IMG/VR virus record: IMGVR_UViG_3300042504_002032
Coordinates: 1-21,346 of that record
Direction: 5' to 3' (one strand)
Origin: a virus
DNA: 21,346 bases
Part shown: piece by piece, positions 1 to 13,074 of the stretch
How the letters are laid out: each line of letters opens with the position of its first letter
Numbering within the stretch: position 1 is the first letter of the stretch
Made by a program: the position numbers and the translations under genes
Notes under the pieces: model-generated
Database searches by the model: none
Told to the model about the DNA's origin: nothing
The model's input: only the letters and a program-made list of their open reading frames with translations

Positions 1-1845
1 CTCTTTGCCTCCCTTCATTCGTTTAATTGTATTTTGAAACAAGGCAATACTGAATTCTACTAACGGCGGAAACTGCTCAATCAGCCCTCGCATTTGGTCA
101 AAAAATTGTCCTGCTGTAGCAATTAACGCTTGTCCTTCTTGCTGTTGTTGCTGTTGGTCTATAGCTACCATCGAATCTGAAGCTATTTGAATACGGTAGC
201 TACGTTTCGTGTCGTCGCGTAGTATGTCAATAATTTGACGCTTCATATCCTCGATAAGCATTAGAGGATCTGGCTGTGGAGCTATAGGAGGTAGCTCAAC
301 TGGTAGCATACCTTCTTGTCCTGGTTCTGGCATTGGCGCGGGAGGTGGCGTTGGTATAAAGATGGTAGGCTCAATAAGAGCTGTCGCATCTCCAATTTCT
401 AAAATCCTAGCTTCATCAAATTGTTCGCAAATGATAGCGCCAAGTTTAGCGATAGCGTCCGACATAAACTTGGTAAACATGTTCTGTCGTACAATTAACC
501 CCATTGACGACCACTGATTTTCTAACCTGTTGGCCGTAGCAGATTTGTATTGCTCTGAGGTGCCACGTAATAGATCAGAAACTTTCAGCGTTTCGTAAAG
601 CTGCTGTAAAGCATTTTGTCGAATTTCTTGAAGAACATTAAGTGCATTTGCAAATGGCTCAAATGGAGCAAACTCCATAGACCCTTGCAAGCCGCCTCTG
701 CCGCGATTTGCAGGCCAATTATCAACAGGGACACCCTTTAGGTCATCTTCAAAGATTTGTTCAATGGTGCGGCCCATAGCGCTGTCATAAGCAAAGTTAG
801 TGCGTATTGCTTGAGTGACAGCATGGATACGGGTTGTAAGGCGTTCTACTTCTAGAATTTGGTCTTTAACATGAGCGTAATCAGATACTGGGATTACGCT
901 ATCTGGATCAATGGATTGTCTGATAACTGAACAGGGATAGAACCCTTCAAATTTGATGGGTGGCTCCATCTCTTCAATAATGGTTTTATCACCACCTTTT
1001 TGGATCCAATAAACTTTGTTTGTTGCTTGGCACCAAATTTCAAATACTTCTGCTTTCCCTTCAAACTTATCTTCTTTTCGAGCTATGTCTTTTTTAATGA
1101 CCTCTGGAAAACTGTCATAGTTTAATTCTTCTGCAACAACGTCGCCAAAAAGAGATTTTGCTTGGTCTCTGTCTAAGAACGCACGTCTAGCCTGCCATTC
1201 TATTTCTTGCTCATTCCGAGCATCGGAGCAGAAGTAATCACTGTAAGAAATGACTTCTAAAACAGCTTTTTCATCTGTTTTTTGTTCTACTTCTACAGAT
1301 TTAACTAAAATGCCCCCTGTTGTTTCTGTAAAGCCTTCTATATCGTCTTCATAAGGCTGACCATTGCCATCCAAATAAGCTCCGCTTGGGTCTTTAATGA
1401 TAGCAATCTCTTGAAAAACTGTTTCAAACTTAGCTATGTATCTAGCCCATAAAACGGCTTGTCCAGTAAGCAAAAATTGCAGAGCTGCTTGATAACCGAT
1501 CTTATCAAAATCAAAGTTGCAATCCATGGCATACTGAGTGTTGCGTTCTATAATAACGCTGCCTAGTTCGTAGGGTATGCCACCTGCTCTTTTACGTAAA
1601 TTTACTTCAGCTTTAGGTGTTGAGCTGTAATAAGCAGGTAGCAGGGTATTAATGCAGTACCACCAAACATTTAATCGTCGCTGTGCGTCTCGTAATGTGT
1701 CTACTTGTCTGTGTGCGTTATAAACCCGAATTGACTCTTCAGCGTCTTGAATAAACTTTTTACGTCTTGTTTCTGCATCAGAAATCTGAGCTTTCCACCA
1801 GCGACCTGAATACTTTTTAATTAGTGAAACAGGTTGTTTTTTCAT
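1..1845 (-). CDS. Portal protein, partial (C-terminus beyond left edge)
   Basis: The frame is open without a stop from an ATG at 1845 to the window edge (615 codons), so the C-terminus is missing or just outside. Portal proteins form the dodecameric ring at the capsid vertex through which DNA is packaged and ejected. Support is its place directly after the large terminase, the length, and a portal-like stretch with VSDLLRGTSEQYKSATANR around residues 415-435 followed by a helical region. A Pro-rich linker (FIPTPPPAPMPEPG) and a Gln run (residues ~558-563) lie near the C-terminus. Its ATG overlaps the terminase stop as ATGA, which suggests translational coupling. The family call rests on synteny and general look rather than a diagnostic catalytic motif. 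Confidence 0.8.
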   Translation of the reverse strand, partial: MKKQPVSLIKKYSGRWWKAQISDAETRRKKFIQDAEESIRVYNAHRQVDTLRDAQRRLNVWWYCINTLLPAYYSSTPKAEVNLRKRAGGIPYELGSVIIERNTQYAMDCNFDFDKIGYQAALQFLLTGQAVLWARYIAKFETVFQEIAIIKDPSGAYLDGNGQPYEDDIEGFTETTGGILVKSVEVEQKTDEKAVLEVISYSDYFCSDARNEQEIEWQARRAFLDRDQAKSLFGDVVAEELNYDSFPEVIKKDIARKEDKFEGKAEVFEIWCQATNKVYWIQKGGDKTIIEEMEPPIKFEGFYPCSVIRQSIDPDSVIPVSDYAHVKDQILEVERLTTRIHAVTQAIRTNFAYDSAMGRTIEQIFEDDLKGVPVDNWPANRGRGGLQGSMEFAPFEPFANALNVLQEIRQNALQQLYETLKVSDLLRGTSEQYKSATANRLENQWSSMGLIVRQNMFTKFMSDAIAKLGAIICEQFDEARILEIGDATALIEPTIFIPTPPPAPMPEPGQEGMLPVELPPIAPQPDPLMLIEDMKRQIIDILRDDTKRSYRIQIASDSMVAIDQQQQQQEGQALIATAGQFFDQMRGLIEQFPPLVEFSIALFQNTIKRMKGGKE

Positions 1846-4142
1846 ATTTTACTCTTAGAGTTTCTAGCTCGTACTTTTGCTATGTAACTTTGTAATTTAA
1901 CCAAGCCTTTGTTGAATACTTCTGCTGGTTGCTCCCATTTAGAATCAATTAAACGTGCTTTACAAAGATAGCGCAAAGCATCACAATTATGTGACACGAC
2001 CCCATTGCCCAAAACAAAAGTACTTGTTTTTGGAACATTTAAGCAATACACGTCTTGCGGGGTTTCGGAATAAGATTTGGATTTAACCGTCTTCGCCTGG
2101 CTGACATTTTGCAATTCTGATGACAATACTTGGCTTTCCATGCCATGTGTTTTTTTGTTTGAAACTCCGCCTGGCAAAACTCGCAAGTTTTGGTAATTAG
2201 CGGCATGTTGGCTGCTATTTGCCTGGCATGTTCTGAATGCCATTCCCGCCCCTGTAGCGACTTGTGCCAAAATTTTGACATCGGCACAGCGTTCTTCAGC
2301 AAATTGGCTTTGGCCCACTCCCTCCGCTCTGGCGTCATATGATTGGAAAGATGAGTTTTGGAATCTAACAATTCTAAGTTTTTTATCTGATTGTTGGCTC
2401 TGTTGCCATCCTTGTGATGAATGTGAAACCCTTTTGGGATTGCACCATTGAAGTATTCCCAAACCTTTCTGTGCAAGCGTCTTGAGCCACGCACGCCTTT
2501 TTGCTGGGCTGAAAAGTAATTGCCGCAACGATAATAACGGGTTCCGTCGAATTGTTGGCACGTGTGCGAAATAACCTTTACTTTCATACGTAACGTAGTC
2601 TATCCAATCCTCAGAGGTAATGGCAATAGCTGTTTTATATGTGCCGTTTGCTAATCGAAACAGATGGTCTGGAGTACAAACAATTTCAGAATTGTCGTTA
2701 AAAACAAGTTTTATGACGTTGGCCTGTTTGCGGGTTAGTGCGCCGCACGCCTCATGGTAATAACCGTCGTGAGATAAAACTGCGACGGAATAGTTGCCGC
2801 AAAGGTCTTTAATTGGCAAAGGCCCAGAATCGGTCATTACAAGCGTATCACCAGCCAAACAAGCATGGTCATTGCCGCTTGTGTCCAAATCCTCTGGTCT
2901 TCGTTTGTCTATTGACATAGATGGTAAAGTTTCTAGCAAGTACGGGCAAGTAGCAAATATGTAAAGCAACGGAGGTTTAGCTACTAGCCTTTGTCTAATC
3001 TGGGACCACCCTGAAAGCCGGTCATTGTCAGCAGCCCTAAAACTCATCTGCTTATACTTGCTAAATACAGCTGTAAACTGATCGTTTATGCTTGGTCCAC
3101 CCTCATGATTAAAGATGCTAGGGTCGGCAACAGCTACTGCATTTTCTCCCACGGAAACTGATGCAATTCTGTTAGCCTGCTCGACGTTATCAACTCCTTT
3201 TCCCCACATTTCGCGATAGATGATAATAGCTCCTTTTGGATATGGTACTTCGTTACCTCTGTCATCACGTCCAGAACTAACAGCACCCCAGACAGCAGCA
3301 AAAGGGCTACGATAACCCCAGTCATAGCCCAAATAACGAGGCCAGTGTTGAGGGACGTTAAAAGCAGCAATGATATGTTTAGAGCTAAACTCAGGAAAGT
3401 AACTACCCTCATGAATCTCAAAGTCTCCTTCTAGCCAAGCCCGCACCAGCTCTGGACTACCAACCATGTGCAAGCGGTTAATGTACTCAGGGTCACGCGC
3501 TAACAAGATTTGATTATCATGCACCCTACTTGGTATGTAGATGTAATCAAAACTGGCGCCGTTAGGCAGGTCTTTTGTTAATACTTTCATCCCTTTGGGA
3601 GCTGGTTTGATAAACAATTCCTTTAGCCAGCTATGACCTATACCACCAGGGTTGAATGTAAGGATGATTTGACCGCCTCCCTTGCCTCGTAATGCTCCAA
3701 ATAGCTTCCAAATACAGGACGGGTCAGCATAGTTACCAGCTTCTTCTATAGCGCAATCTGAGAGGTTCTGGCCTTGGTACTTCTCGGCGTCAGCGTCATT
3801 AGCTAAAGGTCTAAAACGTAAGCGACCACCCGATACGAAGGTAAACTGCTTTTTCTGGTCCTGCCAATGCGCTTTAAGCGGCAAATATATCTGTTTAGCA
3901 CGCTCAATAAGGTCATCAGCTTGGGGTAATTCTTTACGAAAAAAGATAGCATTGAAATGAACCCCTAATTGCTCCTGCTTGATTGCAAACTTGCCTAGTA
4001 CGCCGTCAGTCTTGCCACCACCACGGGCGCCCCCATAACCAACCAATGTAATCGGACAAGCAACTAGAGCCTCTTGAGGGCCAGATTGAGGCGCCCAGAC
4101 AATATGCTCATCAAGGCGCTGTTCAGCTACCCAATCACTCAC
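1842..4142 (-). CDS. terL: Large terminase (TerL) interrupted by an intein
   Basis: This is the ATPase/nuclease that pumps DNA into the prohead and cuts the concatemer. Numbering from GTG 4142 (766 residues before splicing, 474 after): Walker A GGARGGGKT at 37-45, Walker B with acidic pair CAIEEAG at 133-134, coupling motif LTFNPGG at 161-167. The RNase-H-like nuclease has GYDWGY (Asp274), VADPS (Asp340) and HA/CDALRY (Asp721 before splicing). I chose GTG 4142 because it overlaps the methyltransferase stop as GTGA, like other junctions of this operon, and has AGAGG upstream; a TTG at 4187 would add 15 residues. Residues 428-719 form an intein placed one residue before the third nuclease Asp, so activity should depend on splicing. 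The terminase identity is firm; the start is less certain. Confidence 0.95.
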   Translation of the reverse strand: MSDWVAEQRLDEHIVWAPQSGPQEALVACPITLVGYGGARGGGKTDGVLGKFAIKQEQLGVHFNAIFFRKELPQADDLIERAKQIYLPLKAHWQDQKKQFTFVSGGRLRFRPLANDADAEKYQGQNLSDCAIEEAGNYADPSCIWKLFGALRGKGGGQIILTFNPGGIGHSWLKELFIKPAPKGMKVLTKDLPNGASFDYIYIPSRVHDNQILLARDPEYINRLHMVGSPELVRAWLEGDFEIHEGSYFPEFSSKHIIAAFNVPQHWPRYLGYDWGYRSPFAAVWGAVSSGRDDRGNEVPYPKGAIIIYREMWGKGVDNVEQANRIASVSVGENAVAVADPSIFNHEGGPSINDQFTAVFSKYKQMSFRAADNDRLSGWSQIRQRLVAKPPLLYIFATCPYLLETLPSMSIDKRRPEDLDTSGNDHACLAGDTLVMTDSGPLPIKDLCGNYSVAVLSHDGYYHEACGALTRKQANVIKLVFNDNSEIVCTPDHLFRLANGTYKTAIAITSEDWIDYVTYESKGYFAHVPTIRRNPLLSLRQLLFSPAKRRAWLKTLAQKGLGILQWCNPKRVSHSSQGWQQSQQSDKKLRIVRFQNSSFQSYDARAEGVGQSQFAEERCADVKILAQVATGAGMAFRTCQANSSQHAANYQNLRVLPGGVSNKKTHGMESQVLSSELQNVSQAKTVKSKSYSETPQDVYCLNVPKTSTFVLGNGVVSHNCDALRYLCKARLIDSKWEQPAEVFNKGLVKLQSYIAKVRARNSKSKI
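1986..2861 (-). mobile_element. Intein in TerL nuclease motif III (292 residues)
   Basis: The splicing element starts at Cys1 (codon 2861-2859, CLAGDTLV) and ends in SHN (Asn codon 1988-1986), followed by extein Cys+1. Block A is CLAGDTLVMTDSG, block B carries the TPDH motif at intein residues 63-66, block F is VYCLNVPKTSTFVLGNG and block G is VVSHN with the penultimate His and terminal Asn. All residues expected for standard Cys1/Asn/Cys+1 splicing are present. Removal joins GNDHA to CDALRY and restores the nuclease motif. Between blocks B and F the intein frame shows no recognisable endonuclease domain; residues about 92-274 overlap an HNH gene read in another frame. Confidence 0.93.
2039..2587 (-). 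CDS. HNH homing endonuclease encoded out of frame inside the intein
   Basis: This 182-residue protein has the organisation of free-standing phage HNH endonucleases: RLHRKVWEYFNG (38-48), the core HIHHKDGNRANN (55-66) with His57, His58 and Asn62, NLELLDSKTHLSNH (70-83), a GREWHSEHAR segment (113-122) and a C-terminal zinc-ribbon-like module with Cys135/Cys138 and Cys155/Cys159 before a basic tail. It probably cuts an intein-less terL allele to drive homing. It starts at ATG 2587, only five codons after a TAG in its own frame, so fusion by frameshifting has a very short possible window and internal initiation is more likely; no strong ribosome-binding site is visible. Its TAA stop lies inside a Leu codon of intein block F. 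It is +1 relative to the terminase/intein frame. Confidence 0.9.
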   Translation of the reverse strand: MKVKVISHTCQQFDGTRYYRCGNYFSAQQKGVRGSRRLHRKVWEYFNGAIPKGFHIHHKDGNRANNQIKNLELLDSKTHLSNHMTPERREWAKANLLKNAVPMSKFWHKSLQGREWHSEHARQIAANMPLITKTCEFCQAEFQTKKHMAWKAKYCHQNCKMSARRRRLNPNLIPKPRKTCIA

Positions 4143-4780
4143 AGCGGCAATACCTCTTGCCGTAAGCGGTTGGCAGCTAATTCGCAATACTTTTCTTCAA
4201 TTTCAATGCCAATAACTTTCCATTGGAGGTCTTTTGCTGCTCGTAAACTACTTCCACTTCCTGCAAAAGGGTCAAGCATTGTTCCAATTTTATGACATCT
4301 TAAAAATGGATACATTACATTTACAGGTTTTTCTGTTGGATGACGAAGACTGGAACCGTTGATTCGAGGGACTTTTATAATGTCTGTTGGTCGATAAACA
4401 AAAGAATGGTTAATTCCAGGGTAAAAAGCGCACCCTTCCCACTGTCTACCGAACTCATGTTGTAAATCCCCCATGGAATGGCTGCCTTTGTCCCAAACTA
4501 TAAAACTTTTTGGTTTTGGGAGTTCGTATAAATTATCCCATCGACACCATACAAACATTGCACCCGTGTATTTTAACTCTGTAAATATCCAATGCGGAAA
4601 TTTATCATCGTTTGCTATTCCCCCTAATTGTTCGTGCTTTGCCCGCCAATTACTGTGATAATCCATTCCATAAGGCGGATCGGTAAGCACTAAATCGACA
4701 GGCTCTAAATGGGGTAGAATATTCTTACAATCCCCATGGTATAAAGTAACGTAATCATCTTGGTAGTAAGGCTTAATCAC
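4139..4780 (-). CDS. DNA methyltransferase, beta-class amino-MTase (N6-adenine or N4-cytosine)
   Basis: A 213-residue SAM-dependent DNA methyltransferase. The catalytic motif TDPPYG lies at residues 33-38 and the SAM-binding motif DPFAGSGSS at 170-178, after HPTEKP (147-152). The order catalytic motif first, SAM motif last is typical of beta-class enzymes that methylate an exocyclic amino group. It is a solitary enzyme: no restriction endonuclease gene is adjacent, so protection against host restriction or marking of DNA for packaging or replication are the likely roles. It starts at GTG 4780, overlapping the upstream stop as GTGA, and ends overlapping the proposed terL start, so it is co-translated inside the terminase operon. 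Target sequence cannot be read from the window. Confidence 0.93.
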   Translation of the reverse strand: MIKPYYQDDYVTLYHGDCKNILPHLEPVDLVLTDPPYGMDYHSNWRAKHEQLGGIANDDKFPHWIFTELKYTGAMFVWCRWDNLYELPKPKSFIVWDKGSHSMGDLQHEFGRQWEGCAFYPGINHSFVYRPTDIIKVPRINGSSLRHPTEKPVNVMYPFLRCHKIGTMLDPFAGSGSSLRAAKDLQWKVIGIEIEEKYCELAANRLRQEVLPL

Positions 4781-4986: not shown

Positions 4987-5192
4987 ACCCGCTCGTAATC
5001 CCTTTGCCTTACTCTGTTACCGTTTAACCTAAAATACCAGTTACACCTAGCTGCCCCACAGTTCATCCATTCCTTAACCGTGACAATTACCCCAATAAGC
5101 CCACACCGAGGGCAGCAGTAAAAGCTACTCCTCGCTATCTTCGGGGCTAAGGTACTTCTGGATAAACTCTTCTTTCGATAGCGGCTTGGCAC
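4944..5192 (-). CDS. Putative zinc-ribbon protein
   Basis: The frame encodes up to 82 residues with two cysteine pairs, CPRC (about 27-30) and CGAARC (about 45-50), and a basic C-terminus. The only upstream start that keeps the first Cys pair is GTG 5192, which lies within the end of the small terminase gene (68-nt overlap). The 3' end overlaps the next gene by 43 nt. Without this gene a 138-nt gap would exist in an otherwise gapless operon. The Cys spacing supports a real zinc ribbon, but the unusual overlaps keep confidence moderate. No specific function is recognised. Confidence 0.5.
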   Translation of the reverse strand: MPSRYRKKSLSRSTLAPKIARSSFYCCPRCGLIGVIVTVKEWMNCGAARCNWYFRLNGNRVRQRDYERVWGLSTALKRVKKR

Positions 5193-5812: not shown

Positions 5813-6115
5813 CTACGCAATATCATTAAGTAATTGTGCAAACTCTGCCGATGATAGCCCCGATATCTCATGCAGTATCACCAACTCCAACGGCCAGTAC
5901 ATCACCTTGACCCGCTCACGATACTGCCATGCTTTCTGTGTTATACCTATCAGCTTGCCTGCCTCGGTCTGATTTAATCCCAGTAGCTTTCGTATCGAGT
6001 AGTAGAGATTGCCCCGGGGTCTACCGATAGCATGACGATACTTTGCTCGGTATCGTTTCGAGTACATTTCTTTTAGCTTATTGACCCGGGCTGAATACTC
6101 TACTCCATCAAGCAT
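5813..6115 (-). CDS. HTH (XRE-like) DNA-binding protein
   Basis: A 100-residue basic protein with a helix-turn-helix segment: YYSIRKLLGLNQTEAGKLIG then ITQKAWQYRE (about residues 38-68), the pattern of Cro/CI/XRE-type domains, followed by LSSAEFAQLL as a final helix. Such proteins are commonly transcription regulators. It is the first leftward gene beside the divergent control region 6116-6248, where two palindromic sites lie, so it is a reasonable candidate regulator of the early genes and perhaps of its own. No strong ribosome-binding site precedes ATG 6115. The N-terminal 35 residues are Arg/Lys/Tyr-rich and match nothing I recognise. Confidence 0.7.
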   Translation of the reverse strand: MLDGVEYSARVNKLKEMYSKRYRAKYRHAIGRPRGNLYYSIRKLLGLNQTEAGKLIGITQKAWQYRERVKVMYWPLELVILHEISGLSSAEFAQLLNDIA

Positions 6116-6170: not shown

Positions 6171-6212
6171 ACTGTAGACAGTAATCATCTCATACGATAA
6201 GCTGTATACAGT
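6171..6212. promoter_or_regulatory. Pair of CTGTAnACAG dyads in the divergent control region
   Basis: ACTGTAGACAGT (6171-6182) and GCTGTATACAGT (6201-6212) are 10-12-bp dyads 30 bp apart in the non-coding stretch 6116-6248 between the leftward HTH gene and the first rightward gene. TAGACA inside the first dyad is a five-of-six match to a -35 hexamer. TTGACG at 6143-6148 is another -35 candidate, but no good -10 follows either. The same dyad recurs before the genes at 7536 and 8817, which suggests operator sites for a phage or host regulator. Confidence 0.55.
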
Positions 6213-6833: not shown

Positions 6834-7349
6834 CTATTCAGGTATTTCATCCAAACTAATCCCCGTCTTTTCCCTTAACCAATCATATTTACCATCCTTA
6901 GTAACAAACGGTTCCTTCTTAATAGCTACTGGTATTTTTTTAATGGTAGTTTCTAATGGTAATACTTTTAATGGTAGCGGGTCATTTTGCCCCCGATCAT
7001 TGGGGTCATTTTGCCCCCTATATGGGTTCAATTTGCCCCCATTCGAGGTCAGATTGACCCCGTTCATTGGGGGCGTTTTGACCCCATTCGTGTTGAGGTA
7101 CCGACCCCTTCCCTTGCTCGTTTGTCGCAGTAGTCCGGCTGATAGTAATCGGCGGATCATTCGCTTGGTAGCTGATTCAGAGAATCGCAATTCCGCCGCT
7201 ATATGCGGAATGGAGGCAAAGCACGGTCGCTTGTTTCTCTCAAACCTTTGAACGTAACTAAGAATTAGTGCTTCGTGGTGGGAGAAACCGGCATCAACTA
7301 GCGAAAAGTCTACTATACCTATGCGGTGTTTTTTGGTATCTTTACCCAT
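6834..7349 (-). CDS. Winged-helix replication initiator (lambda O-like arrangement)
   Basis: A 171-residue protein on the opposite strand to its neighbours. Residues 25-85 form a winged-helix domain (HHEALILSYVQRFERN, ASIPHIAAELRFSESATKR, IRRLLSAGLLRQTSKGRGRY) like those of phage and plasmid initiators. Residues 89-124 are a low-complexity linker with repeated NGVNL, NGGKLNP and GQNDP units, translated from DNA iterons. The C-terminal part is Lys-rich and short (ending GISLDEIPE), possibly a helicase- or primase-loader contact. AAGGAA precedes ATG 7349 by six bases. Iterons inside the initiator gene beside AT-rich DNA match the lambda O/ori layout, so the protein most likely binds its own gene as origin. 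A transcription-regulator role is the main alternative. Confidence 0.75.
   Translation of the reverse strand: MGKDTKKHRIGIVDFSLVDAGFSHHEALILSYVQRFERNKRPCFASIPHIAAELRFSESATKRMIRRLLSAGLLRQTSKGRGRYLNTNGVKTPPMNGVNLTSNGGKLNPYRGQNDPNDRGQNDPLPLKVLPLETTIKKIPVAIKKEPFVTKDGKYDWLREKTGISLDEIPE
6939..7085. other. Probable replication origin inside the initiator gene
   Basis: Five related 16-bp units lie at 6979-6994, 7003-7018, 7025-7040, 7046-7061 and 7070-7085, with start-to-start spacing of 24, 22, 21 and 24 bp. Units 1 and 2 are identical (GGGTCATTTTGCCCCC). Unit 4 shows the dyad GGTCA-GAT-TGACC, and a degraded sixth copy may lie at 7093-7108. Beside them, 6890-6977 is AT-rich with three 11-bp repeats, TTTAATGGTAG at 6939 and 6967 and TCTAATGGTAA at 6952, which could be the unwinding element. 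Origin function is inferred from this layout. Confidence 0.7.
6979..7085. repeat. Five iterons, consensus about GGGTCATTTTGCCCCC
   Basis: The core is a G-run, a TCA/CGT step, a T-rich centre and a C-run, so each unit is an imperfect palindrome. Copies vary mainly at the centre (ATTTTG, AATTTG, GATTG, GTTTTG). The array encodes residues 89-124 of the initiator, giving it a repetitive linker. The spacing of roughly two helical turns puts copies on nearly the same DNA face, as in iteron origins. Confidence 0.8.
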
Positions 7350-7472: not shown

Positions 7473-7519
7473 GCTGTACACAGTACATCGTATTGTGTAG
7501 GATTGATGCTGTAAACAGT
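7473..7519. promoter_or_regulatory. Pair of CTGTAnACAG dyads upstream of the envelope cassette
   Basis: GCTGTACACAGT (7473-7484) and GCTGTAAACAGT (7508-7519) lie 35 bp apart just before the gene at 7536. A weak promoter TGTACA - 17 bp - TAGGAT (7475-7480, 7498-7503) would have its -35 inside the first dyad and its -10 just before the second, as expected for repressor operators. The binding protein is unknown; the HTH protein at 5813-6115 is one candidate. Confidence 0.5.
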
Positions 7520-10299: not shown

Positions 10300-10608
10300 G
10301 TGGCAACAAGGATTGGAGCATTTAAGGCTAACACATCACAATTAGTCATCTGGCAACAACCTGAGCGCATCAATTTTACGTTTCAAAAACATTATAGGGA
10401 CAAAAGAACCGGGCAGTACAAAGCGACTCAAACCATTTTTGCGGATGAGCTTGAGGCTATCGGCGAGATGTTTTTGCGAGCCGCAGCGTGGGCAAAAAAA
10501 CACAACTGCGGGCAACCACTGCCTAAAGGCATGGTACAAATAGACGATGTTTTAACGAGTGTAACTAAACAGATAAAGGATAGATATGAAACCAGTCAAA
10601 ACATATAA
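10300..10608 (+). CDS. ssDNA-binding-like protein, paralogue 1
   Basis: GTG 10300 lies nine bases after a strong AGGAGG. The 102-residue product shares its core with the next gene: IGAFKANTSQLVIW, then a beta-rich stretch, then QKHYRDKRTGQYKATQTIFADELEAI followed by a helix. That pattern of strands with YxDKxTGxxKxT before a helix resembles small phage ssDNA-binding proteins with a PC4-like fold. Unlike its neighbour it lacks an acidic C-terminal tip and ends DRYETSQNI. It overlaps the next start by 23 nt. The family call is by pattern only. Confidence 0.55.
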   Translation: MATRIGAFKANTSQLVIWQQPERINFTFQKHYRDKRTGQYKATQTIFADELEAIGEMFLRAAAWAKKHNCGQPLPKGMVQIDDVLTSVTKQIKDRYETSQNI

Positions 10609-10894
10609 AGAAGGCGGACTACAAGTAACAATGTGGCCTGCTAACAACGGAGGCTATACGTATCAAATTAGCAAGCGCTACAAAGACAAAAAAACAGAAG
10701 AATGGAAAGACTCGAAGTATCTTTATAAGTCCGATTTAGAAAAACTTGTGCTATTGTTGCAAGAAGCCATCAACAGCGAGGCAGAGCGCGTAAGTTACGA
10801 TGCGGAACGTGTAACTAGTGGTCAACCTGTTACACCGCCAGCAAAGCAAAAGTATGAGTTGGCGCAAGACGACATTGATGACTTGCCGTTTTAA
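10586..10894 (+). CDS. ssDNA-binding-like protein, paralogue 2 with SSB-type acidic tip
   Basis: A 102-residue protein from ATG 10586, preceded by AAGGATAG. Residues 1-62 align with the previous gene: YKEGGLQVTMW, SKRYKDKKTEEWKDSKYLY, SDLEKLVLLLQEAI. A flexible Pro/Gln linker leads to the C-terminal tip DDIDDLPF, which closely resembles the acidic tail with terminal Phe by which bacterial SSB recruits replication and repair proteins. I therefore read it as the phage SSB working with the annealase and initiator. The pair probably arose by tandem duplication. Confidence 0.65.
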   Translation: MKPVKTYKEGGLQVTMWPANNGGYTYQISKRYKDKKTEEWKDSKYLYKSDLEKLVLLLQEAINSEAERVSYDAERVTSGQPVTPPAKQKYELAQDDIDDLPF

Positions 10895-11581: not shown

Positions 11582-12565
11582 ATGCTATACGGAATTGATT
11601 ATTTAGGATTACCCAAATATACAGACCTTGCAATTAGAGAGCATCCAGAAGGTTGGGCAGCTGGTTGCTTTGCTAACACGTTTGGTAATGCTCTACCCGC
11701 AGTAGATCGACTACTTGGTACTGGCAGGTGTCCACATTTTAGAGTGCATTTACTATGGAGTGATGCTCATCGTTTTGGCGACGCTGATATTCCAACAATA
11801 AGGCAATTAGCACGCAAATACGAACTGCTTAAACGGAAGTATAATTTTGTCGTAATGGAGATTTCGCCATTTTGTGAGCATAACGTAAGCAATCCAGACA
11901 AATACCTAGATATTGTAAAACAGGAAGCACCTAGCTGTATCATAGTTAATACACCATGGCAGGGTGCAGTATCGCGACGCTATAAAAACGAAACGCACGG
12001 CACACATAGGCCTTTAGCTGGTAGCTATAATTACAGTTGGGATGGCACGTCTTGTGTTGACGGAGATGTAGAAGCAAGCAAAGCGCTACATGCTAGGTCA
12101 GACGTATACTTCTGGTGGCATCCTGCAATGAATGGCAGGTTAAACACTAACGATAAAACCCCCCGATCACAGCGAAAGGCTTGGCCAACCTCAGAGTTGA
12201 TCGACTCAATGATTTATCTTCACAATCCAGCAGGTAGAGTAAAACTACCTCGTAACTACCTGTGGAAATCTCATGCCGATAGACATAGTACACCACCAGA
12301 ACCACGAGCATATAAGCCAGTGCTTATTATGCCGCCTAAAGCACGTCGTGTTGAACTAGTAGCAGATAATGGCCAAGTTGTAGCAATAGCAGGCGCAGCA
12401 GCACCGTTTAACGATGGTAGGTTTAGGTACTACTGGCCTGATTTTGGCTACAAACTTGCTGAAAAAGCAGTACGTATACACAACAAGCCAACCTGCAAGT
12501 TAGTTGTTGATGGGAAGGAAATGGGCATTGTAAACCCTGCTTTTAGAGGGGGATCGTTTCGATGA
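11582..12565 (+). CDS. Putative TIM-barrel (glycoside-hydrolase-like) protein
   Basis: A 327-residue protein beginning immediately after the protease stop (TAA-ATG). Hydrophobic strands end in polar residues in the way of beta/alpha barrels: HFRVHLLWSDAHRF (about 52-65), NFVVMEISPFCEH (about 88-100, with a candidate catalytic Glu), SCIIVNTPWQG and SDVYFWWHPAMNGR. The last 80 residues look like a beta-sandwich (ARRVELVADNGQVVAIAG onward), perhaps sugar-binding. No signal peptide is seen. I do not recognise the family; glycoside hydrolase is an inference from strand and acid pattern. Its pairing with a secreted protease suggests action on surface polymers, but it could be virion-borne. Confidence 0.5.
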   Translation: MLYGIDYLGLPKYTDLAIREHPEGWAAGCFANTFGNALPAVDRLLGTGRCPHFRVHLLWSDAHRFGDADIPTIRQLARKYELLKRKYNFVVMEISPFCEHNVSNPDKYLDIVKQEAPSCIIVNTPWQGAVSRRYKNETHGTHRPLAGSYNYSWDGTSCVDGDVEASKALHARSDVYFWWHPAMNGRLNTNDKTPRSQRKAWPTSELIDSMIYLHNPAGRVKLPRNYLWKSHADRHSTPPEPRAYKPVLIMPPKARRVELVADNGQVVAIAGAAAPFNDGRFRYYWPDFGYKLAEKAVRIHNKPTCKLVVDGKEMGIVNPAFRGGSFR

Positions 12566-13074
12566 GTAAAACACCTGAAGAGATACCAGGCAAGCGCTTC
12601 ACCATTGAAGACATCCGCAGCTGGAACCCATGCTACGACCCCGCAAGGCATTTGCCTGAAGGTTGGAGCGGGACTGCTGCCGATATATTGCGGCATGAAA
12701 CTATTCCCGCCAAAGACAGGCTATGGGTTGTGTGCAGAGAAAATTTGATAGACGCAAAGACACTACGGCTTTTTGCTGTTTGGTGCGCTAGGCAGGTTGA
12801 GCATCTAATGATAGACGAGCGGAGTAAAAAAGCCCTCGAAGTAGCTGAACGATTTGCAAACGGCGAGGCAACCTCTGAAGAGTTGGCTGCTGCTTGGGCT
12901 GCTGCTGGGGCTGCTGCTGGGGATGCTGCTTGGGCTGCTACTGGGGCTGCTGCTTGGGCTGCTGCTGGGGATGCTGCTTGGGCTGCTACTGGGGCTGCTG
13001 CTGGGGCTGCTACTGGGGATGCTGCTTGGGCTGCTCAAGTTGCTCGACTATTAAAAATGGTAGAGGGGGAATGA
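12562..13074 (+). CDS. Hypothetical protein with Ala/Gly/Trp tetrapeptide repeats
   Basis: A 170-residue protein whose ATG overlaps the preceding stop (ATGA at 12562-12565). Residues 1-108 are a globular segment (RFTIEDIRSWNPCYDPARHL; AKDRLWVVCRENLIDAKTLR) that is probably cell-associated. Residues 109-158 consist of 12.5 tetrapeptide units such as AAAW, AAAG, DAAW and AATG. A closing helix ends VARLLKMVEGE. Similar Ala/Trp repeats occur in uncharacterised phage proteins; structure and role are unknown to me. The downstream ATG overlaps its TGA. The frame of the downstream gene is also open through the repeat. Confidence 0.75.
   Translation: MSKTPEEIPGKRFTIEDIRSWNPCYDPARHLPEGWSGTAADILRHETIPAKDRLWVVCRENLIDAKTLRLFAVWCARQVEHLMIDERSKKALEVAERFANGEATSEELAAAWAAAGAAAGDAAWAATGAAAWAAAGDAAWAATGAAAGAATGDAAWAAQVARLLKMVEGE
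12886..13035 (+). repeat. 12-bp tandem repeat array, about 12.5 units
   Basis: The units are variants of GCTGCTGCTTGG: position 4 is TGG or GGG, GAT may replace the first GCT, and ACT the third. Unit length is a multiple of three, so unit gain or loss keeps the reading frame. Other frames of the array are also free of stops, which explains long artefactual open frames on both strands here. Confidence 0.92.

Follow-up and report, generated by a model that had tools for sequence, protein, structure and literature searches.

The analysis of the virus record IMGVR_UViG_3300042504_002032 (positions 1 to 21,346, that is, the whole stretch of 21,346 bases, referred to here as the window) revealed that palindromes and AT-rich repeats are embedded inside an initiator gene to an extent that exceeds chance. 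On the basis of these features and of the sequence comparisons reported below, it is very likely that this gene codes for a lambda-O-type initiator of an uncultured family of tailed phages, and that its middle third also serves as its origin. It has long been established that lambda carries its origin within gene O, and an intragenic origin is not in itself a novelty; the family to which the window belongs is a new variant of this arrangement, lacking the O C-terminal domain and with no P gene found in 12 records. Since neither the C-terminal domain nor a P/DnaB partner was found, we have classified the gene as that of an O-like initiator whose probable origin is intragenic, and not as lambda O proper.

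Structure of the initiator gene and of its repeats

The features recognized in the gene and upstream of it are reported in Table 1. Along the direction of the gene, the winged helix is followed by the palindromes, by the AT-rich repeats, and by the tail, all of them within ORF 6834-7349(-). This is the order of lambda O (DNA-binding domain, iterons, AT-rich element) that had been noticed in the first-pass annotation, whose coordinates and repeat counts were correct to within one base. The gene had also been described as pointing against its rightward neighbours, which is correct, with the addition that it runs in the same direction as its leftward ones.

Table 1. Features of the initiator gene and of its promoter region (positions of the window).
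Feature	Position	Strand	Description
Initiator gene	6834..7349	-	ORF of 171 aa; wHTH domain followed by a linker encoded by the iterons, an AT-rich part and a short tail
Winged-helix DNA-binding domain, codons 1-88	7086..7349	-	AlphaFold2 model and PHROG matches
Recognition helix, residues 58-70	7140..7178	-	AlphaFold2 model; residue 59 is Ser, at 7173-7175
Iteron 1, GGGTCAAAACGCCCC	7070..7084	-	Palindromic site, gene nt 266
Iteron 2, GGGTCAATCTGACCT	7046..7060	-	Palindromic site, gene nt 290
Iteron 3, GGGGCAAATTGAACC	7025..7039	-	Palindromic site, gene nt 311
Iteron 4, GGGGCAAAATGACCC	7003..7017	-	Gene nt 333; frame differs from that of iterons 1-3
Iteron 5, GGGGCAAAATGACCC	6979..6993	-	Palindromic site, gene nt 357
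AT-rich element, presumed unwinding element	6912..6977	-	Three TACCATTAAAA-type repeats: 6967-6977, 6952-6962, 6939-6949
Short C-terminal tail	6834..6911	-	Last residues SLDEIPE; relatives carry several unrelated tail types
Two exact CTGTANACAGT palindromes, presumed operators	7474-7484, 7509-7519		Overlap promoter-like -35/-10 reading into the initiator gene

The palindromes had been proposed to be five, imperfect, spaced by 21-24 bp, and 16 bp long. Their number and their spacing (in ascending coordinates, the iteron starts of the window are 24, 22, 21, and 24 bp apart) are confirmed, whereas the sites are better described as 15-bp ones. In a synonymous null, the protein was kept fixed and the synonymous codons were redrawn 2000 times; the palindromy of the window is 0.69 versus 0.47 under such recoding (p<0.0005). 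The five iterons are split over two reading frames (nt 266/290/311 versus nt 333/357), so that similar DNA gives two different peptides, NGVKLTP and RGQNDP, and the palindromes have a cross-frame identity of 0.80, versus 0.46 by synonymous recoding (maximum 0.63; p<0.0005). The near identity of the DNA in two frames, together with the synonymous null, thus shows that selection acts on the DNA repeats and not on the peptide. The opposite idea, i.e., that the peptide repeats were selected and that the DNA similarity is a by-product, might find some support in the repetitive nature of the linker at the protein level; however, the different peptides encoded in the two frames, the loss of identity upon synonymous recoding, and a linker pLDDT lower than 50 in the AlphaFold2 model, as if the linker were disordered, leave it with a negligible probability, and the synonymous null rules it out.

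A consensus-free scan recovered the four iterons of lambda exactly, as well as the five of the window; the same scan returned one further region of the window, a protein repeat at 12899, and none in five shuffled windows. A gene with a tandem Ala/Trp-rich protein repeat is located at 12562-13074 (+). Concerning the AT-rich DNA, the three 11-bp repeats previously pointed out were recovered as well (they are of the TTTAATGGTAG type, the one at 6952-6962 with two mismatches), against 0.37 expected (p=0.001), several relatives being just moderately above chance in this respect. The region from about 6912 to 6976 is 75% AT, and few 60-bp stretches of the window are richer in AT.

As regards the protein, the AlphaFold2 model gave the winged helix a block-mean pLDDT of 75-89 across residues 21-90 and placed residue 59 at the N-terminal start of the recognition helix. 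Profile comparison matched the window protein to phrog_270, phrog_428, phrog_678, and phrog_391 (phrog_678 at 1.4e-5, and at 7.6e-9 with the relative L029), and replication-initiation PHROGs were matched by all nine of the family members scanned; the phrog_186 matches turned out to be the initiator itself. The HTH_36 score of the window protein, 19.8 bits (E 7e-4), is below the Pfam cut-off of 25. The fold is that of a winged helix, the best PDB matches being of the MarR/ArsR type, and the N-terminal domain of DnaD (2v79, Z 8.8) is also matched. This similarity to MarR/ArsR-type regulators, as well as the absence of a helicase or loader gene, would fit an autoregulatory transcription factor, for which the intragenic palindromes would represent operators blocking or tuning the transcription of its own gene. 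We regard such a possibility as improbable, because the layout of five sites at even spacing with AT-rich repeats after them copies the lambda ori, the profile matches are replication initiators, a separate operator pair already lies at the promoter, and no other initiator was recognized in the relative G001.

Covariation and possible exchange of the recognition helix and the iterons

The search of IMG/VR returned 11 loci when the window protein alone was used and 23 with a profile of the N-terminal domain, some of the latter being identical or located on the same contig, while the phage collection, the plasmid collection, and the GTDB contigs gave no match to relatives. In the set of genes analysed (n = 20, the window and 19 IMG/VR relatives), 17 have four or five clear iterons, with AT-rich repeats of the TACCA type after them, and the same layout with fewer clear iterons is kept in L011, L027, and L028. 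The iteron spacing in the relatives is mostly 24, 21, 22, 24 (in the gene direction), the CAA core mostly persists, and the cross-frame identity is above every synonymous recoding in all the genes tested (17/17). Directly past the last iteron the AT content (mean of the 20 genes) is 0.74, versus 0.47-0.58 upstream. The C-terminal tails of the family are short and belong to several types.

The outer letters of the half-sites are uniform within each gene and change in concert between genes; GGGT/AGGT, GGAT, and GTGC/CGGC/ATGC occur in the family, with CAA next in all of them. With the classes assigned by an objective half-site consensus, residue 59 predicts the half-site in 20/20 genes (Pro with GGAT in 10, Ser with GGGT in 3, Cys with AGGT in 1, and Arg with xxGC in 6), that is, Ser/Cys59 pairs with GGTCAA, Pro59 with GGATCAA, and Arg59 with GCCAA half-sites. 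Among the 88 alignment columns, column 59 is the sole full predictor of the class (mutual information 1.53 bits, the next column reaching 1.07). On a backbone tree built without the helix, the half-site class needs at least seven changes; since this tree is weakly supported and contains only two starred (supported) independent pairs (sign test p 0.5), the association is strong and the number of independent specificity switches uncertain. The covariation strongly implies that the initiator reads the iterons. The rule is strict only within the family of the window; a universal residue-59 code is not supported, and some Arg-bearing helices outside the family pair with GC-AG or GA-CA half-sites. 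The covariation also bears on the idea that the iterons serve in partition, like a centromere, or are bound by some other protein of the phage or the host, the gene product just lying over them. Iteron arrays are found in centromeres too, and the fold search gave a weak match to a plasmid centromere-binding protein (4rs8), but the agreement between residue 59 and the site class in every gene, the conservation of the AT-rich element, and the profile matches to initiators make this explanation highly improbable.

Between L008 and L009, nt 150-385 show 88 differences in 235 positions and the rest of the gene 10 in 263 (p 9e-23); the left boundary recurs in the L024/L021 pair, with 12/150 differences before it and 76/235 after it (p 1e-8); as the comparison windows were picked after viewing the alignment, both p-values are descriptive. 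In 30-nt bins, L008 and L009 are 97-100% identical in nt 1-150 and 90-94% identical in nt 390-498, the divergent stretch corresponding to the recognition helix through the iterons and both gene ends being nearly identical. No donor breakpoint was identified. The natural reading would be that the recognition helix and the iterons have been exchanged as one cassette by recombination. Since the sites are part of the gene for the protein that reads them, beside the reading helix, both can be exchanged together, and the lock and the key would stay matched. The family provides close homologues that form a natural series, with the site and the recognition helix changing together, including the near-isogenic L008/L009, which makes the specificity code and the logic of an origin placed in its initiator directly testable. 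If the reading is direct, S59P and S59R would shift the preference among GGGTCAAAATGACCC, GGATCAAAATGATCC, and GTGCCAAATTGGCAC.

Comparison with lambda O and other initiators

Work on type-specific O proteins goes back to the 1970s (Furth and Yates 1978, as cited in PMC6022878), and in lambda and Stx phages the central part of gene O contains O-binding iterons and an AT-rich tract (PMC7466680). The gene of the window shares with lambda O/ori-lambda (J02459) an HTH-type initiator, iterons in the middle of the gene, and AT-rich DNA after them, and phrog_678 is also common to both (1.7e-35 for lambda O, over residues 1-172). Lambda is annotated with four iterons of 18 bp at a spacing of 20-24 bp, whereas the window has five of 15 bp. 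The claim of the first-pass annotation that the iteron sequence is unlike that of lambda holds for the outer half-site letters (GGGG in the window versus CCC in lambda), but not for the core TCAAAAYGA (Y being T or C), which the two have in common. With 171 aa versus the 299 of lambda O, the window protein ends where the C-terminal half of O begins; a domain homologous to O residues ~177-298 is absent, the protein stopping at residue 171 with no C-terminal PHROG match, and the family, unlike lambda, lacks this domain and yielded no P gene in 12 records. The alignment by hhalign of the window protein with the single lambda O sequence gave no match, and no PDB relatives of lambda O were found by sequence.

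A more distant set of HTH_36 initiators from named phages and plasmids (n = 18) was also considered. In HTH_36 O-like initiators (Pseudomonas MD8, Klebsiella phi12.5, SfV, Vibrio D79, Aeromonas 56, and a Massilia plasmid), intragenic palindromic arrays lie just past the DNA-binding domain. Palindromic repeats are above the synonymous null in 17 of the 18 (p 0.010 or less), as in lambda O, which indicates that linker-coding iterons are common in the HTH_36 initiator class; the repeats of L080, although scattered, reach significance (p 0.010), and L069 is without an array and not above the null. The distant initiators are longer (about 210-390 aa), and an annotated P-like or DnaB-like gene is found near the initiator in at least nine of the 18 cases, within the stretches fetched, and in no record of the window's family. 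The linker-coded iteron array appears to be widespread in proteobacterial phages and plasmids, which would make origins predictable from the initiator gene alone.

The IMG/VR locus L068 resembles the window in that its linker contains GGTGCCAAAATGGCCCC sites, downstream of a helix bearing Arg at the position of residue 59, but it is a 443-aa open frame in which HTH_36 is fused to a DnaA N-terminal domain (PF11638, 2.7e-7); this fusion might represent an alternative helicase-recruiting route, without counterpart in the family of the window. A sequence-specific interaction with iterons that differ between close relatives is also known for geminivirus Rep (PMC12548392), which is, however, an unrelated rolling-circle initiator of plant viruses with iterons upstream of the gene. 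Lastly, searches for origin parasites by patterns of iteron pairs alone covered 2.9 million viral contigs: GGATC pairs returned only family members, GGTGCC pairs returned family members and other HTH initiators with intragenic sites, L068 among them, and GGGTCA pairs also identified one array outside any recognized initiator gene, in the 82-kb viral contig L044. At 5059-5101 of this contig there are GGGTCAAAATGACCC arrays, with two exact copies in the pattern match and a third one nearby.

Possible mechanism and genomic surroundings

According to the mechanism that we propose, two wHTH domains would bind each palindromic 15-mer, and residue 59, at the N-terminal end of the recognition helix, would read the two base pairs outside the CAA core, as the covariation suggests. 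Bound at intervals of about two helical turns, five copies might then build an O-some-like complex, which, judging from the anatomy of the gene and the lambda precedent, would melt the adjoining AT-rich TACCATTAAAA repeats, where the host helicase would be loaded.

PF06992, PF03796, and PF01695 (lambda P, DnaB, and DnaC-like) were found in none of 12 records, the window and several of these records being fragments, and among the ORFs of G001 (36.6 kb, with overlapping ends) no replication gene was recognized besides the initiator, and no helicase or loader. An integrase was likewise found in 0/12 records and DNA polymerase A in 0/8. Since no phage helicase or loader was found, the host DnaB would presumably be recruited, either via the short C-terminal tail, via the host DnaA, or via an unrecognized partner; the question posed by this family is how a helicase is loaded by a short initiator that has neither the C-terminal domain of O nor a P partner. 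In a broader reading, possible although somewhat doubtful, the gene would be a minimal one-gene replicon, with a short initiator whose coding sequence is the origin, a host helicase acting without a phage loader, and helix and iterons forming an exchangeable cassette with a one-residue code (S/C, P, or R at position 59), perhaps diversified against interference from related phages or origin-bearing parasites. The GC skew turns near 7 kb, yet it follows the gene strand both in the window and in the relatives; it does not discriminate and was discarded as origin evidence.

The CTGTANACAGT palindrome has eight matches with up to one mismatch in the window, versus 1.4 expected. A second exact pair is located within 6172-6212, the two pairs flanking the stretch of the initiator gene. 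A phage repressor probably uses these pairs as operators, and it may be the XRE-like protein encoded at 5813-6115(-). The Rfam search returned nothing. Elsewhere in the window, the tandem related ORFs 10300-10608 and 10586-10894 (+) belong to one conserved family (19 loci), and the second ends with DDIDDLPF, which is similar to the acidic tip found in SSB proteins; their products are candidates for a phage ssDNA-binding protein. Finally, the terminase large subunit (1842-4187, -) matches the intein-splicing domain PF14890, and a 182-aa ORF (2039-2587, same strand) lies within the stretch inserted in it.
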